64,000 nt of DNA, taken from NCBI RefSeq assembly GCF_038561935.1, contig NZ_CP102770.1, forward strand, positions 4,588,001 to 4,652,000. Direction: 5' to 3'. Numbering within the stretch: position 1 is the stretch's first letter; each line of letters begins with the position of its first letter. The position numbers and the translations under genes are program-made. Origin of the DNA: Myxococcus stipitatus. GTDB lineage: Bacteria; Myxococcota; Myxococcia; Myxococcales; Myxococcaceae. Shown in pieces: positions 2,991 to 22,641 of the stretch. The notes under the pieces were generated by a model. The model had not been told where the DNA came from, did no database searches, and saw only the letters and a program-made list of their open reading frames with translations.

Positions 2991-5150
2991 ATGAGCCCCA
3001 AGAAGTTCCTTGCCCAGCGCGCCTGGGCCACCCATGCCCTTGGCACCCTGCTGCTGACGGGCTGCGCCAGCTCGCCGCAGCCTGCTCCCACCCCGGAGAC
3101 GCCGCCCGCGGCCGAGGCCGCTCCCGTCGCGCAGGCCGCTCCGGCCCCCGCACCGTGGTCCGTTCCCGTCGCGGAGTCCCTGTCCGCCGAGGCCGTCCGC
3201 GCGCTGGGCGTCGAGCTGAAGAACCTGGATGCCTCGGTCCGCCCGCAGGATGACTTCTACCAGTTCGTCAACGGGACCTGGCTGAAGACCACGCCCATCC
3301 CCGCGGACCGCGCGCGCTACGGCACGTTCATCGAGCTGGCGGACAAGGCCGAGCTGGCGCTGCGCACCATCATCGAGGAGGCCGCCGCCGCGAAGGACCG
3401 CAAGGCTGGCTCCACGCCGCAGAAGGTGGGCGACCTCTACAACAGCTTCATGGACACCCAGCGCATCGAGTCGCTGGGCCTCAAGCCCATCGCCGGTGAG
3501 CTGTCCCGCGTGCGCAAGCTGAAGCGCAAGGACCAGCTCCCGGAGCTCTTCGCGGAGCTCCAGCGCGACGGCGTCCAGACGCCCTTCGGCATGTTCGTGG
3601 GCCAGGACCAGAAGCAGGCCACGCGCTACATCGCGTACGTGAGCCAGGGCGGACTGGGCCTGCCGGACAAGGACTACTACTCCAAGCAGGAGCCCAAGTT
3701 CGTCGAGATCCGCGCCGCGTACGTCGCGTACATCGAGAAGCTCCTCACGCTGGCGGGGGAGAAGGACGCGAAGAAGGCCGCGCAGGACATCCTCGCGTTC
3801 GAGACGGCGCTGGCCGACAAGAGCTGGACCCGGGTGAAGAGCCGGGACCGCGAGGCCACCTACAACCTCAAGAGCATCCAGGAGCTGGAGGCGCTGACCA
3901 AGGGCTTCGCGTGGGCGCGCTTCTTCAAGGCCGCGGGCGCCGAGGCGACGCCCGCCGTCATCGTGCGTCAGCCCGACTTCTTCGAGGCGCTGGCGGGGCT
4001 CCTCGACACCACGCCGGTGCCGGTGCTCAAGCAGTACCTCGCGTTCAAGGTCGTCTCCGCCCGTGCGCCGCTGCTGTCGAGCCCCTTCGAGCAGGCCTCG
4101 TTCGAGTTCAACGGCAAGACGCTGCAGGGCCTCCAGGAGAACCGCCCGCGCTGGAAGCGCGGCGTGGCCTCCGTGGACGAGGCGCTGGGCGAGGCCGTGG
4201 GCCAGCTCTACGTGGAGCGGCACTTCAGCCCCGCGTCGAAGGAGCGCATGAAGGAGCTCGTCAGCAACCTGCGCGAGGCCTTCCGCGTGGGCATCGACGG
4301 GCTGCCCTGGATGAGCGCGACGACCAAGGCGCAGGCTCAGGACAAGCTCGCCAAGTTCAACGTGAAGATCGGCTACCCGGACAAGTGGCGGGACTACTCG
4401 AAGCTGCAGATTGTCGCCACGGACCTGGTCGGCAACATGCGCCGCAGCGACGCGTTCGAGTTCCAGCGCATGGTGGGCAAGCTGGGCAAGCCCATCGACC
4501 GTGAAGAGTGGGGCATGACGCCGCAGATGGTGAATGCCTACTACAGCTCCACGATGAACGAGATCGTCTTCCCGGCCGCCATCCTCCAGCCGCCGTTCTT
4601 CAACCCGGAGGCGGACGACGCGACGAACTACGGCGCCATCGGCGGCGTCATCGGCCATGAGATCAGCCACGGCTTCGACGACCAGGGCAGCCGCTCGGAC
4701 GGCGACGGCAACCTGCGCAACTGGTGGACGGACGAGGACAAGAAGGGCTTCGAGAGCCGCACCTCCGTGCTGGTGGCGCAGTACTCGGGCTTCAGCCCGC
4801 TGGAGTCGATGAAGGTCAACGGCGAGCTGACGCTGGGCGAGAACATCGGCGACCTGAGCGGCCTCACCGTGGCGTACCAGGCCTACAACCTGTCGCTGAA
4901 GGGCCAGCAGGCGCCCTCCATCGCGGGCTTCACGGGCGCGCAGCGCTTCTTCCTCGGCTGGGGGCAGATCTGGCGCGGCCTGTACCGCGATGACACCATG
5001 CGCCAGCTGCTCCTCACCGACAGCCACTCGCCGCCGATGTACCGGGTGAATGGTGTGGTGCGGAACATGCCGGAGTTCTACGAGGCGTTCGGTGTGAAGC
5101 AGGGCGACGCGGGCTGGCTGCCGCCCGAGCAGCGCGTGAAGATCTGGTAG
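2991..5150 (+). CDS. M13 family zinc metallopeptidase, lipoprotein (neprilysin/PepO-like)
   Basis: 719 residues, the usual length for M13 endopeptidases, which cut short peptides outside the cytoplasm. The N-terminus is a lipoprotein signal with lipobox LTGC (Cys25), then an Ala/Pro-rich linker to about residue 60. The M13 N-domain follows (DDFYQFVNGTWLK, about residues 85-97). The zinc site is complete: HEISH at residues 556-560 and ENIGD with Glu617 and Asp621. A GGAG ribosome site lies 5 bases before the ATG. The gene stands alone, 167 bases after the preceding one; a GC-rich hairpin follows the stop. Confidence 0.95.
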   Translation: MSPKKFLAQRAWATHALGTLLLTGCASSPQPAPTPETPPAAEAAPVAQAAPAPAPWSVPVAESLSAEAVRALGVELKNLDASVRPQDDFYQFVNGTWLKTTPIPADRARYGTFIELADKAELALRTIIEEAAAAKDRKAGSTPQKVGDLYNSFMDTQRIESLGLKPIAGELSRVRKLKRKDQLPELFAELQRDGVQTPFGMFVGQDQKQATRYIAYVSQGGLGLPDKDYYSKQEPKFVEIRAAYVAYIEKLLTLAGEKDAKKAAQDILAFETALADKSWTRVKSRDREATYNLKSIQELEALTKGFAWARFFKAAGAEATPAVIVRQPDFFEALAGLLDTTPVPVLKQYLAFKVVSARAPLLSSPFEQASFEFNGKTLQGLQENRPRWKRGVASVDEALGEAVGQLYVERHFSPASKERMKELVSNLREAFRVGIDGLPWMSATTKAQAQDKLAKFNVKIGYPDKWRDYSKLQIVATDLVGNMRRSDAFEFQRMVGKLGKPIDREEWGMTPQMVNAYYSSTMNEIVFPAAILQPPFFNPEADDATNYGAIGGVIGHEISHGFDDQGSRSDGDGNLRNWWTDEDKKGFESRTSVLVAQYSGFSPLESMKVNGELTLGENIGDLSGLTVAYQAYNLSLKGQQAPSIAGFTGAQRFFLGWGQIWRGLYRDDTMRQLLLTDSHSPPMYRVNGVVRNMPEFYEAFGVKQGDAGWLPPEQRVKIW

Positions 5151-5284: not shown

Positions 5285-5509
5285 GTGAACCCCATCGTGC
5301 TTCGCGTCGTCTGTGGTCTGCTGTTCACCGCGCTCGTGCTGGGCGTCGTCGTGCATCCGCCCGACAACCTCACGCAGGGGCTGGGGATGTTGCTCCCGGC
5401 GAGCATGTTCCTGGGTGTGGCCCTCAAGGGCCCCCGGAGGAGCCTCCTCCCGAAGAAGAAGAAGGGCCCCCCGCCCGTGGCCGCGCAGGACGTGTTCCCG
5501 CCGACCTGA
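5285..5509 (+). CDS. small membrane protein, unknown function
   Basis: 74 residues from a GTG start (MNPIVLRVV). Two hydrophobic segments (about residues 5-20 and 32-46) suggest an integral inner-membrane protein. The tail is basic (LLPKKKKG) and should lie in the cytoplasm. An upstream in-frame ATG at 5207 would add a Gly/Pro-rich stretch unlike a protein start, so the GTG is preferred. No family recognised. It is convergent with the fumarase gene. Confidence 0.6.
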   Translation: MNPIVLRVVCGLLFTALVLGVVVHPPDNLTQGLGMLLPASMFLGVALKGPRRSLLPKKKKGPPPVAAQDVFPPT

Positions 5510-5529
5510 GGGCGAAGGACCTCTCGCCC
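5510..5529. terminator. possible bidirectional hairpin between convergent genes
   Basis: GGGCGA (5510-5515) and TCGCCC (5524-5529) form a 6-bp stem with an 8-base loop in the 35-base gap between the small membrane protein and the fumarase gene. There is no U-tract. It is weak and offered for its position. Confidence 0.25.
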
Positions 5530-5544
5530 CCAGGAGAACAGCGC

Positions 5545-7176
<1,632 letters not shown>

Positions 7177-19879: not shown

Positions 19880-20533
19880 TCAGCGTCCCAGGACCCACGC
19901 ACGCAGCCACGCCAGGAAGGTGCCCACGCCGGGCGTCACCCGAGCCTGGGTCCATCGCAGCTTGCGCACCTGCCGCGTGCCACGCGCCTCCGCGGCGAGG
20001 GGCTCCAGCATCGCCAGTGCCTCCTCGCGCTCCTGCTGCCGCGCGAGCTGGAGCACCAGGTCGAGCTTCACCTCGAACAGCGACGCATCCAGCGCGAGGG
20101 TTTCGCGCAAGAGGGTGATGGCGCCGGGGCGATCACTGCTCCGGTGGAAGTGGAGTCGGCCGCGCAGCAAGGTCTTCACGGCCTCCGCCCGATGCCCCTT
20201 CTGCATGTGCAGCTGGGCCACCTGCCGCCACAGCTCCAGCTCGAGCGGGAACATCTCCGTGGCCTGGGCGTAGACCGCCTGCGCCTTGTCCGCGAAGCCC
20301 TTGTCGAGATGGGCCTGCGCGGCCGCGCGGAAGCTCTCGAGCGCGGCCTGGGGCTGTCGGGTCCGAGCCAGCAGCGGTGCGAGCTTGCCCAGGACGACGG
20401 CGTCCTTGGGCTCCAGCTCCAGCGCCTTGCGGTAGCCCGAGATGGCCTTGTTCAACCGGCCCTTCGAGCGCGCCAGGTCCGCCTCGGTGATGAGCTCTGA
20501 ACGGGAGGGGGGCGTCTTGCTTCCGAACAGCAT
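19880..20533 (-). CDS. tetratricopeptide-repeat protein
   Basis: 217 residues, cytoplasmic, made mainly of TPR helices: ARSKGRLNKAISGYRKALELEPKD and AAAQAHLDKGFADKAQAVYAQA are typical units, with about four repeats between residues 15 and 160. It is a likely protein-protein interaction scaffold. Similar short TPR proteins starting MLF or MFFG are common in myxobacteria. The start is ATG 20533; upstream open sequence is not TPR-like. An 11-bp inverted repeat (20618-20650) lies upstream. Confidence 0.8.
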   Translation of the reverse strand: MLFGSKTPPSRSELITEADLARSKGRLNKAISGYRKALELEPKDAVVLGKLAPLLARTRQPQAALESFRAAAQAHLDKGFADKAQAVYAQATEMFPLELELWRQVAQLHMQKGHRAEAVKTLLRGRLHFHRSSDRPGAITLLRETLALDASLFEVKLDLVLQLARQQEREEALAMLEPLAAEARGTRQVRKLRWTQARVTPGVGTFLAWLRAWVLGR

Positions 20534-20617
20534 CGCGACTTCGCATTGAAGTCCTCCGCGATGCTCCGGGCAACCCCACGCGTGATACTCCGTCACCACT
20601 GGAGATTTCTAATAGGT

Positions 20618-20650
20618 GGGCCCGGTCAAGGTATCCTCCTGACCGGGCCC
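20618..20650. repeat. perfect 11-bp inverted repeat (hairpin)
   Basis: GGGCCCGGTCA (20618-20628) and TGACCGGGCCC (20640-20650) are exact inverted copies with an 11-base loop. It lies between the tRNA-like RNA and the TPR gene, both on the minus strand. It may end the RNA transcript or act on the TPR mRNA leader. No U-tract follows on either strand. Confidence 0.5.
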
Positions 20651-20843
20651 GGTTGTGCCGCCATGGATGAGGTCCGCACGTTTAAGTCTTCGCCTCAGGA
20701 TGAGGCCTCGCGTCCTGCGATTGAACGACCGCCGCACGAGCAGAAGAAGCGGCGGGCCGGAATTGCACCAGCATCTCGAGGGAATGGGCGAAGACGGTAG
20801 ATCGGACCTGCGACGGCGAATGCTGAGTCTGGAGTGAGAAGTT

Positions 20844-20980
20844 GAAGCTGGGGTGCTTCGCGTTACCCGCTTCGTCGCGCTTGCCTCTACCAGTTGGGCT
20901 ACCCCGCAACAAAGGACGGCCATAGCGGGGGCAGGGCTCGAACCTGCACTGGAGGCGACGCGGGAACGCTCGGCGTCAGG
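20844..20980 (-). ncRNA. circularly permuted tRNA-like RNA (YrlA Y RNA-like or two-piece tmRNA-like)
   Basis: In minus-strand order: a T-arm (GCAGG-TTCGAGC-CCTGC, 20947-20931), the acceptor 3' strand CCCCGCT plus A (20930-20923), a 14-base loop, the acceptor 5' strand TGCGGGG (20908-20902), U8-A9, then a D-arm (20899-20883) with the AACTGGTAGA loop. The acceptor strands pair over 6 of 7 positions. Outside this core, 20969-20955 pairs with 20878-20860 as 5+4+6 bp with two small bulges. The 3' side carries another hairpin (GAAGC/GCTTC, 20859-20844). Neither half has a normal tRNA partner on its own. A tRNA-like module with the acceptor stem closed by a loop is known in YrlA Y RNAs. Permuted tmRNA has a similar order, but no tag frame was found and the D-arm is too tRNA-like. 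The transcript ends are not defined. Confidence 0.65.
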
Positions 20981-21034
20981 CTGCTGCTGAGTTTGAGTTT
21001 GTACTCCGAAAATCGTGCGCGCCGAGCCCGAGGC

Positions 21035-21766
21035 TCAGCTCAGGAGGTAGCCGAGGATGGCGTCACCCGACTTCAGCTCCTGGACCTCCACCGCGTTGGC
21101 TTCCTCGCGCGCGAACTTGACGGCTTGCTGGAGCTTCTCCACTCGCTCGAGCAGCTCGTGAACTCGAAGGGCGGGCAGGGCGCCCGAGTACTTCACCGTC
21201 TTCCAGTAACCGACGACGATGTCCTCGTAATACACCTCCACCTGGGCGGGGTGCTTCTCGGTCGCCTCGGCCTTCACGTGGTTGCGAGGGACCTTCTTCG
21301 TCTTCGCCGTCTGCACGGGCTCCGTGGCCCACAGGCCCTGCGCCGGGTCTGGCGTCCAGGTCTCCGACGGGTCCAGCGTGGGCAGCTTCTTCACGAAGGT
21401 GTGCAGGTCCACCAGCTGCTTCTCGAGGAAGAGCAGGTACGTGGCGGGAGCGCCCTTGAGGAGCACCTTGCCGTCGACGCGGACGTCCGCCTTCGCGTGG
21501 CAGTTGGTGAGGTCCTTGGTGGCGGTGACGTCGAAGAGACGGGTGAGGATCTCCTTCGTCTTCTTCAGCACGTCGTCGGTGCGCACCTGCACGCGCGTGG
21601 ACTCAGGAGGGAAGCGTTCACCTTCCTCGTCACGGGGCTGATAGGTGCGGGAGATACCGTTGAGCAGTTGAGGCTTCTGGAGGTCGTGGTGCGCCTGGGT
21701 CAGCTCCTGAAGGGAGCGACTCTTGACGCCCTTTTCGACGGCGACGATCTGGTTGAGCTTGGTCAT
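21035..21766 (-). CDS. conserved protein of unknown function (DUF7873-like)
   Basis: 243 residues, soluble, no signal peptide. The sequence (TKLNQIVAVEKGVKSR, LNGISRTYQP, TYLLFLEKQLVDLHTF, TKKVPRNHVKAEATEKHPAQ) closely resembles a highly conserved family I recall from actinobacteria, annotated DUF7873 there; name and number are from memory. The Lys/Arg-rich conserved stretch KTKKVPRNHVK near residue 165 could contact nucleic acid, but this is inference. No catalytic motif is recognisable. It is immediately upstream, on the same strand, of the permuted tRNA-like RNA, with 55 bases between its stop and the RNA core. It follows the enoyl-CoA hydratase gene by 83 bases. Confidence 0.8.
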   Translation of the reverse strand: MTKLNQIVAVEKGVKSRSLQELTQAHHDLQKPQLLNGISRTYQPRDEEGERFPPESTRVQVRTDDVLKKTKEILTRLFDVTATKDLTNCHAKADVRVDGKVLLKGAPATYLLFLEKQLVDLHTFVKKLPTLDPSETWTPDPAQGLWATEPVQTAKTKKVPRNHVKAEATEKHPAQVEVYYEDIVVGYWKTVKYSGALPALRVHELLERVEKLQQAVKFAREEANAVEVQELKSGDAILGYLLS

Positions 21767-21849
21767 GTGCTTGTCAGTCTGGAAGTTTGGATTGGGGCGC
21801 AGTGACGGCCCCAGCACCTCCAGGCTGACAAGCACGGGCCAAGGCCTCG

Positions 21850-22641
21850 CTAGCGTCCCTGGAACACGGGAGCCCGTCGCGCCGCCGCCGCCGCGAGCCC
21901 CTCGCCCAGGTCCGCGCTGCCATAGCTCTCCGCCTGGAGCCGGGCCTCTTCCTCCAGCGCGCGCTGGAGCGCGGCGCGGTCCAACCCCAGGCGCTGCTTG
22001 ACGCCTCGGGTCGCCAGGGGCGCGTTGCCGGCGATGCTCCGCGCGAGCGCATGGGCCCGAGCGCGTGTCTCCGTGGCCGGAGTGGCCTCCAGCGCGAGCC
22101 CCAGCCGCGCGGCCTCGCGCCCGTCGAAGCGGCGCCCGGTGAGCAGCAGCTCCGAGGCGCGCTGCGGCCCCACCCTCATCGGCACGAGCCAGGTGGCCCC
22201 CATGCCCGGATGCAGCCCCAGCTGCACGAAGTTGAGGGCGAGCTTCGCGTCTTCGGAGACGATGCACACGTCGCACGCGAGCGCGACGCACAGCCCCGCG
22301 CCGATGGCGGCGCCCTCCACCGCGGCCACCGTCGGCACGTGCAGGTCGAGGACGCTGAGGTAGCGCGCGTAGAAGTCGAGCATGAAGACGCGCGCCTCCT
22401 CGAACGAGGCCTTGCGCAGCCGCTCCAGCATCCGCAGGTCACCCCCCGCGGAGAAGGTGCCGCCCGCTCCGGCGAGGACCACGGCGCGGACGTCCCCGCG
22501 CCCGCGCAGCTCGCTCACGCGGGCACGCAGCGCGTCTCCCAGCTCGGGCGTCATCGCATTGCGCCGGGGCGCATCGTTCAACGTGAGGGTGGCGACCCCT
22601 TCCGCTACCTCGAGGAGCACGCCGTGATTCGGGTCGGTCAT
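21850..22641 (-). CDS. enoyl-CoA hydratase/isomerase family protein
   Basis: 263 residues, the typical crotonase length. The oxyanion-hole motifs are present: AGGTFSAGGDL (about residues 59-69) and AAIGAGLCVALACD (about 111-124). The second acidic catalytic residue of hydratases is less certain (NFVQLGLHPGMGATW replaces the usual E-x-x-x-G-xxP-G pattern), so isomerase or related activity is possible. Probably in fatty acid or branched-chain acyl-CoA metabolism. No other beta-oxidation gene is adjacent. Confidence 0.88.
   Translation of the reverse strand: MTDPNHGVLLEVAEGVATLTLNDAPRRNAMTPELGDALRARVSELRGRGDVRAVVLAGAGGTFSAGGDLRMLERLRKASFEEARVFMLDFYARYLSVLDLHVPTVAAVEGAAIGAGLCVALACDVCIVSEDAKLALNFVQLGLHPGMGATWLVPMRVGPQRASELLLTGRRFDGREAARLGLALEATPATETRARAHALARSIAGNAPLATRGVKQRLGLDRAALQRALEEEARLQAESYGSADLGEGLAAAAARRAPVFQGR

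Follow-up and report, generated by a model that had tools for sequence, protein, structure and literature searches.

The DNA analyzed here is a 64,000-nucleotide (nt) stretch of Myxococcus stipitatus contig NZ_CP102770.1 (positions 4,588,001 to 4,652,000, forward strand; hereafter the window, numbered from its first letter), from a genome of 10.17 Mb that was compared with 26 further genomes of the same genus. The minus strand of the window carries a gene for a protein of the DUF7873 family, found in a single copy in this genome. Directly downstream of this gene, 27 nt beyond its stop codon, begins a region of approximately 390 nt that is predicted to form a structured RNA (Table 1). The predicted RNA includes two modules (M1 and M2) in which the parts of a tRNA are circularly permuted into the order T-arm, acceptor stem closed by a loop, and D-arm. 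Based on sequence comparison, we consider it nearly certain that an RNA of this structure adjoins the DUF7873 gene. The first-pass annotation of this DNA had marked positions 20844-20980 as a single permuted tRNA-like gene; this interval does hold a real module, but only the first of the ~390-nt RNA, and M2, the long-range helices and the 3' hairpin with its GGN loop had been missed.

Table 1. Features of the DUF7873 locus in the window (bp, base pairs; aa, amino acids; ORF, open reading frame).
Feature	Positions	Strand	Details
DUF7873 gene, 243 aa	21035..21766	minus	ATG at 21766; Pfam PF25283, 3.4e-115; residues 176-417 of longer ORF
Whole RNA element	20618..21007	minus	~390 nt, P1 5' strand to end of 3' hairpin; ends inferred from conservation (homologous regions and helices in window)
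P1, helix around M1	20831..21007	minus	21007-21003 GGAGT / 20835-20831 ACTCC, 5/5 pairs
P2, outer helix of M1	20860..20969	minus	20969-20955/20878-20860; first 5 bp 5/5
M1	20883..20947	minus	T-arm 20947-20931; acceptor 20930-20924/20908-20902 (6/7 pairs); 15-nt closing loop; U8-A9; D-arm 20899-20883
P4, long-range helix around M2	20670..20809	minus	20809-20803 AGGUCCG / 20676-20670 CGGACCU, 7/7
P4', 9-bp helix	20686..20795	minus	20795-20787 / 20694-20686, 9/9
P5, outer helix of M2	20706..20781	minus	20781-20777 / 20710-20706, 5/5
M2	20712..20772	minus	T-arm 20772-20756 (T-loop UGCAAUU); acceptor 20755-20749/20735-20729 (7/7); 13-nt closing loop; D-arm 20726-20712
Loop-loop contact	20634..20748	minus	M2 acceptor loop 20748-20746 UUC with P6 GGA 20636-20634
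P6, 3' hairpin, 13 bp	20618..20650	minus	13/13 pairs; 7-nt loop AGGAUAC

The RNA was compared across 94 loci with a DUF7873 gene (designated L and a number), comprising the best 80 of 533 from GTDB genomes, 6 from IMG/VR, 7 from phages and 1 from a plasmid collection. By use of a rule-based finder of permuted tRNA modules run over the 900 nt after the DUF7873 gene, two modules were found at 72 loci, one at 21 and none at L091. One of the two rule hits at L114 is probably noise (the covariance model of M2, R2, matches at 4001-4084), and this locus was left out; the remaining 71 two-module loci were reduced by de-duplication to 61 at 95%, 40 at 88% and 23 at 80%. Linkage to the gene was assessed with those of the 80 GTDB loci that were long enough (78 or 75). 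A module was detected in 77 of the 78 intervals directly downstream of bacterial DUF7873 genes, compared to 0/75, 2/75, 0/75 and 1/78 for four kinds of control interval (3/303 in all). Within the Myxococcota, DUF7873 was encoded by 30 of 195 genomes and 3 of 90 genera, and separate matches for both modules were found at all 30 loci (genomes that partly overlap the 80), the weakest being L188 at 47.5 and 45.1 bits. Judged by record names, the bacterial loci spread over five phyla and include Myxococcus, Hyalangium, Streptomyces and other actinomycetes, Ktedonobacter (which we take to be Chloroflexota) and its kin, and metagenome-assembled genomes called Armatimonadetes and Acidobacteria. DUF7873 was also encoded in 73 of 50,697 phage records, and four further phage loci had at least one module each.

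For M1, the architecture proposed by the first-pass annotation was borne out. The T-arm and acceptor 3' strand lie ahead of the acceptor 5' strand, U8-A9 and D-arm where it had placed them on the minus strand, six of the seven acceptor pairs form in the window, and the 15-bp outer helix that it drew (P2) was checked over its first 5 bp and is present as a whole in the minimum-energy fold. The covariation that it suggested looking for beside DUF7873 genes was likewise found. In an alignment of 39 sequences (A4: the window and 38 of the 40 loci left at 88%, with L054 omitted for a long loop and L068 for a short, doubtful D-loop), the T, acceptor and D helices were paired in 99.3% of 584 cells, compared to 84.3% after shuffling and 43-56% in slid controls. 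Two-sided changes were observed in 68 cells and in 7 of 15 pairs, and four of five statistical measures were reached by 0 of 500 shuffles. A covariance model (R1, of which the window is itself one row) found M1 in its own genome at 72 bits (E 1.2e-18). When the two strands of P2 were paired computationally in 23 sequences, the own partner gave -13.5 kcal/mol vs -9.2 for foreign partners. P1, which encloses M1, varied in relatives as GUG/CAC, GUA/UAC and GCG/CGC (by eye), and one of its column pairs was C-G in 43, T-A in 12 and G-G in 6 of 61 sequences (weighted standard pairs, 93%). A DNA-similarity search of 61 genomes with a 142-nt stretch gave a match in each of the 27 that belong to the genus and in none of the 34 other relatives. 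The folding energy of the stretch marked by the first-pass annotation was that of random sequence (z = 0.08; 101 of 200 shuffles fold equally well), so the case for an RNA is made by comparison and not by the stability of a single fold.

M2 was supported by the same approach. In an alignment of 38 sequences (A5: the window and 37 of the 40 loci, with L055, L110 and L112 omitted for long loops), 91.3% of 760 cells were paired, rising to 100% for the T, acceptor and D helices; two-sided changes occurred in 18 of 20 pairs, all five measures were reached by 0 of 500 shuffles, and slid controls paired at 37-47%. The outer helix P5 showed two-sided changes in all 5 columns, yet only 65.3% of its cells were paired in the MAFFT register, which we attribute to register shifts in the alignment. 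The model R2, again with the window as one of its rows, matched M2 at 73.6 bits (E 1.9e-21). Structure-free evidence came from a G-test with average product correction over 69,006 column pairs of the 61 sequences (effective number ~19). Its ranks 1-17 all fell in the module stems, P1, P4, P4', P5 or the contact between tRNA position 73 and the GGN loop described below, with non-pairing columns intermixed from rank 18 down; thus, the test adds P4 and P4' around M2, P1 around M1, and the 3' hairpin. The weighted fraction of standard pairs was 1.00 for P4 columns 258-396, 260-394 and 261-393 and 0.85 for 255-399; for P4' it was 0.97 (270-381), 0.94 (271-379), 0.85 (276-375) and 0.69 (274-377). 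Own partners were again favored in the 23 sequences, at -37.0 vs -27.5 kcal/mol for P4 with P4' and -9.9 vs -6.1 kcal/mol for P5.

Chance, in the form of fragments that belong to separate, ordinary tRNA genes or of inverted repeats arisen at random, is thereby left with a negligible probability. Genuine tRNA arrays of the own genome do give matches to the covariance models (L126, L129, L130 and L131; 9 and 7 tRNA genes lie within ~3 kb at L126 and L130, near 1.865 Mb and 0.502 Mb of C1), but no tRNA was found in the window or at 17 bacterial loci, and the covariation and the control intervals already refute this explanation.

The linkers between these helices were also inspected by eye. At 21002-20987 and 20830-20818 (minus strand), and in relatives, they hold 6-nt periodic repeats resembling AAACUC or AAGCUG, in which K/R codons would alternate with L/F/M codons, also in relatives whose sequence has diverged; coding, protein binding and helix formation are candidate roles only.

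M2 and the 3' hairpin appear to touch. P6 carries a GGN motif in its apical loop, and the N of this motif covaries with the first base of the M2 acceptor loop, the equivalent of tRNA position 73. In the G-test alignment the pairs were T-A 30, G-C 25, T-G 4, A-T 1 and C-C 1, and a dedicated count over the 71 two-module loci gave 66 Watson-Crick and 3 G-U pairs (69/71). After shuffling, the mean was 33.6 Watson-Crick pairs and 0 of 10000 shuffles reached 66, a figure in which kinship among loci is uncorrected. In the two unpaired rows, L051 and L086, the loop reads GGGC, and its GGC would be the match for GCC; both rows were scored as misses. Position 74 of the loop was C (65) or U (6) and position 75 was U (50) or C (21), so both are able to pair with the two G residues of GGN. 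With a finder that requires GG in the loop, a GGN-loop hairpin was detected at all 71 two-module loci. By eye, the acceptor loop of distant phages opens with a full NCCA accompanied by a matching GGN hairpin: ACCA in Klebsiella phage FBKp24 (ACC with GGU) and GCCA in Rhizobium phages Y1_11 and TM16 and Vibrio phage D505 (GCC with GGC). In Rhizobium phage TM21B (CCCA), no clear matching loop was seen by eye.

A tRNA end is held in a similar manner by the UGGN loop of the T-box antiterminator and the L15 loop (GGU) of RNase P RNA. As in those RNAs, a GGN loop here faces the N-C-C of a tRNA-like acceptor, with N covarying with the discriminator position; unlike in those RNAs, the acceptor is supplied in cis by a permuted and closed tRNA-like module. 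At the Rfam gathering score, neither a T-box nor an RNase P model had a match in the window or at the loci of 15 relatives. The likeness raises the explanation of a cis-regulatory leader or switch in a 3' untranslated region, in which the 3' hairpin acts as a terminator for a downstream gene or for DUF7873 under the control of a T-box-like NCC/GGN contact. The GGN-loop hairpin does stand at the 3' end and is followed by a U-run in several relatives (e.g., L040, L042 and L118, by eye), but no terminator-like site was found on the minus strand of the window at 20500-21900 and the tRNA-like end is provided in cis, and we find this explanation quite improbable.

Full NCCA ends, as in FBKp24, Y1_11, TM16 and D505, would also suit a permuted two-piece tRNA or transfer-messenger RNA (tmRNA) whose acceptor loops are cut and whose ends are charged with an amino acid. 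A two-piece tmRNA had been one of two identities offered by the first-pass annotation, and it shares with this RNA a permuted tRNA-like domain. Here, by contrast, the D-arm is kept, the acceptor is closed and there are two modules. The acceptor loops range from a minimum of 4 nt (L118) through mostly 6-16 nt to 117 nt as the longest listed, and many are without CCA. An ordinary tRNA differs further, as its order of acceptor 5' strand, D-arm, anticodon arm, T-arm and acceptor 3' strand is absent here. ARAGORN reported 0 tRNA and 0 tmRNA in the window, and the Rfam tmRNA and cyclic tmRNA models had no match there (E up to 10 over 20700-21100). Closure of the acceptor by as few as 4 nt, covariation at position 73 and the missing anticodon arm argue against a chargeable tRNA or tmRNA, and we judge this identity highly improbable.

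The other identity offered, a Y RNA of the YrlA type, captured the layout of the module. The Rfam YrlA model (RF02553) aligned with M1 over its whole length, but its 23 bits fall short of the gathering score of 69, and sub-threshold matches were found at M2 of L047 (35.3 bits), L042 (33.6) and L110 (32.9). YrlA and the modules have in common the order T-arm, loop-closed acceptor and D-arm, then an outer helix. The RNA described here differs in its ~390 nt, two modules, long-range helices, 3' GGN hairpin and DUF7873 neighbor in place of Rsr, whereas Y RNAs are reported as 90-150 nt with one tRNA-like domain (PMC8394870). The YrlA tRNA-like domain is reported to be modified by DusA and TruB and bound by PNPase, with the YrlA stem bound by Rsr (PMC8394870).

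A true Y RNA would bind Ro60/Rsr (the TROVE family) and serve an RNA decay machine of the RYPER kind, with DUF7873 as an extra factor. The genome search for a TROVE gene that the first-pass annotation proposed as a check found none in any of the 27 genus genomes. Across phyla, a partial TROVE match was present in 12 of 24 DUF7873 genomes (11 over the cut-off); the matches mostly cover residues ~289-351 of 442, and the other 12 genomes had none. A control genome, that of Deinobacterium chartae, has both families. The lack of a TROVE match in the genus, the size, the two modules and the low score indicate that this is not a classical Y RNA despite its Y RNA module, and membership in the strict sense is distinctly improbable. 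Rather, the RNA is of a permuted tRNA-mimic kind, with a serious chance of being a class of its own. At the gathering score, Rfam 15 had no match in the window or at the loci of 15 relatives.

Further permuted tRNA-like RNAs were encountered apart from the DUF7873 RNA. Three are isolated (L127, at C1:2110413-2110498 of the own genome, minus strand; L125; and L128), with no tRNA reported by ARAGORN in their 3-kb loci and the one DUF7873 gene of the genome elsewhere. The L127 type retains an anticodon-like arm whose 'anticodon' bases vary between species (by eye), has DNA-similarity matches in 27 of 27 genus genomes and scores 39.3 bits with YrlA; 99.6% of 506 cells were paired in 16 sequences, with two-sided changes in 6 pairs and many pairs invariant. 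These are candidate orphan Y-RNA-like or permuted tRNA-like RNAs, in a genus without a TROVE match. Module-like matches were also seen at L117:483-564 and 653-738 and at L121:5126-5211, 5326-5410 and 5494-5574 (Nonomuraea; viral contig). The L121:5326 match overlaps an ordinary tRNA-Pro call, and some such matches may be neighbor artefacts.

Large structured RNAs near tRNA genes are known from phages as GOLLD and ROOL, which PMC12286853 presents as phage or prophage RNAs, often near tRNA islands, with function unknown. The DUF7873 RNA is comparable in this setting but is shorter, has tRNA-mimic modules and a linked protein gene, and matches no Rfam model at the gathering score. In 8 of 11 phage records, tRNA genes outside the RNA lie within 2.5 kb (on both sides in 4 of 11), with 8 such genes nearby in Mimi, 10 in NiceHouse, 12 in TM21B and 18 in Phendrix; two Pseudanabaena phages had no annotated tRNA genes nearby. 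In FBKp24 the sole annotated tRNA, 'tRNA-Sup-TTA', overlaps M2 (L191:3518-3597) and is probably a mis-annotation of it. ARAGORN, run on a chosen 29 of loci L030-L123, found tRNA genes within the fetched stretch at 3 of 5 IMG/VR loci and 0 of 17 bacterial loci.

In several phages the RNA stands among tRNA genes, which suggests a role in maintaining tRNAs or in tRNA warfare during infection. One such role would be that of a decoy, in which tRNA-cleaving defence enzymes or toxins are sequestered or inhibited by the closed mimics and DUF7873 acts as stabilizer. The tRNA genes of the 8 phage records are consistent with this, as is a competitive-inhibitor role suggested for YrlA, itself uncut by the Salmonella nuclease (PMC7790460). 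A decoy is at odds with the lack of an anticodon as bait for anticodon nucleases, with chromosomal conservation across the genus (27/27) and with the lack of a PADLOC match for DUF7873, and we regard it as rather unlikely. A few jumbo phages are noted, in the review PMC7824862, to have TROVE proteins with a tRNA-like partner as an RNA-repair platform, which makes phage use of tRNA mimics plausible.

The DUF7873 protein had no match in NCBIfam, PADLOC or PHROGs. Its AlphaFold2 model (predicted local distance difference test 84.3, predicted template modelling score 0.70) shows five helices, each ~10-30 residues long, and a pair of long strands at its center (151-166 and 175-194), with the conserved basic stretch TKKVPRNHVKAEATEKHPAQ connecting the two strands. 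Structural and sequence neighbors that were set aside include a single PDB sequence match (E 0.3), the best Foldseek match to PDB (E 3.5e-3, template modelling (TM) score ~0.1) and the best VIA-align match, to TolC (Z 7.4 at a root-mean-square deviation of 12.3). In a viral library, the structural neighbor of highest probability was protein A0A7M1RW91 of the uncultured phage cr118_1 (probability 0.99, TM 0.45/0.59, E 0.043).

Taken together, we favor, with a probability of roughly 0.5, a reading in which this is the RNA of a DUF7873 ribonucleoprotein that presents tRNA mimics to tRNA-binding proteins. The locus would encode a two-component ribonucleoprotein, the DUF7873 protein and the ~390-nt RNA downstream of it, the latter presumably transcribed as a stable RNA. 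Each module would offer a T-arm, closed acceptor and D-arm, with a helix in place of the anticodon arm as the connection to the remainder of the RNA, and the tRNA-like N-C-C/U 3' end inside the M2 acceptor loop would dock on the GGN loop of the RNA's own 3' hairpin. DUF7873 may bind conserved linkers or internal loops of the RNA. The elbow mimics would show a tRNA surface to proteins that recognize tRNA, such as modification enzymes, nucleases or PNPase, and the complex may tether, compete with or be modified by the tRNA machinery, by analogy to what a Y RNA does for Ro60. The task of the RNA may be that of a tether or of a decoy. In its most extended form the proposal is tentative and falls just short of an even bet: a new class of ribonucleoprotein in bacteria and phages, made of DUF7873 and an RNA with a GGN-docked cis imitation of tRNA (M2) and a second tRNA elbow, that recruits or blocks the tRNA machinery independently of Ro60 and is carried by large phages among or near tRNA genes.

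Several results weigh against this reading. Eleven Streptomyces loci together with L115, L116, L122 and L123 keep M2 and have no separate match for M1, so two modules are not always needed, and at L091, where the DUF7873 gene is present, neither covariance model matches within the 8.7 kb of the locus. The presence of related Streptomyces makes the pair counts too high, as reflected by the effective number of sequences, and for M1, 31 of 500 shuffles reached the fifth measure, which counts the pairs showing two-sided changes. The own partner outdid every foreign one in just 11 of 23 sequences for P4 with P4', and in 6 of 23 for P5 as well as for P2. No promoter-like site was found at 20500-21900 of the window, besides the lack of a terminator-like site in the same interval. 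Searches of PDB and viral structures gave no trustworthy fold match for DUF7873, which leaves its fold unplaced, and binding of the RNA is therefore argued from gene linkage and the conserved basic stretch (TKKVPRNH...).

Literature searches found no paper naming DUF7873 and, among the titles and abstracts listed, no description of this RNA. The view of the first-pass annotation that such an RNA was undescribed beside this protein family in myxobacteria agrees with these searches and with Rfam but was too narrow, as the RNA is a widespread neighbor of DUF7873, phages included. For the RNA, the finding means that permuted tRNA mimics, hitherto tied to the Y RNAs of Ro60, would occur more widely as an RNA theme, in this case in duplicate and with DUF7873 as the linked protein. 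The RNA would also account for gaps left unannotated in phage genomes and for one tRNA call there that is probably false, and its natural intramolecular contact between a tRNA end and a GGN loop is offered for structural study. DUF7873 itself, a family of five bacterial phyla (by record names) and of large phages, would gain a concrete, testable partner.
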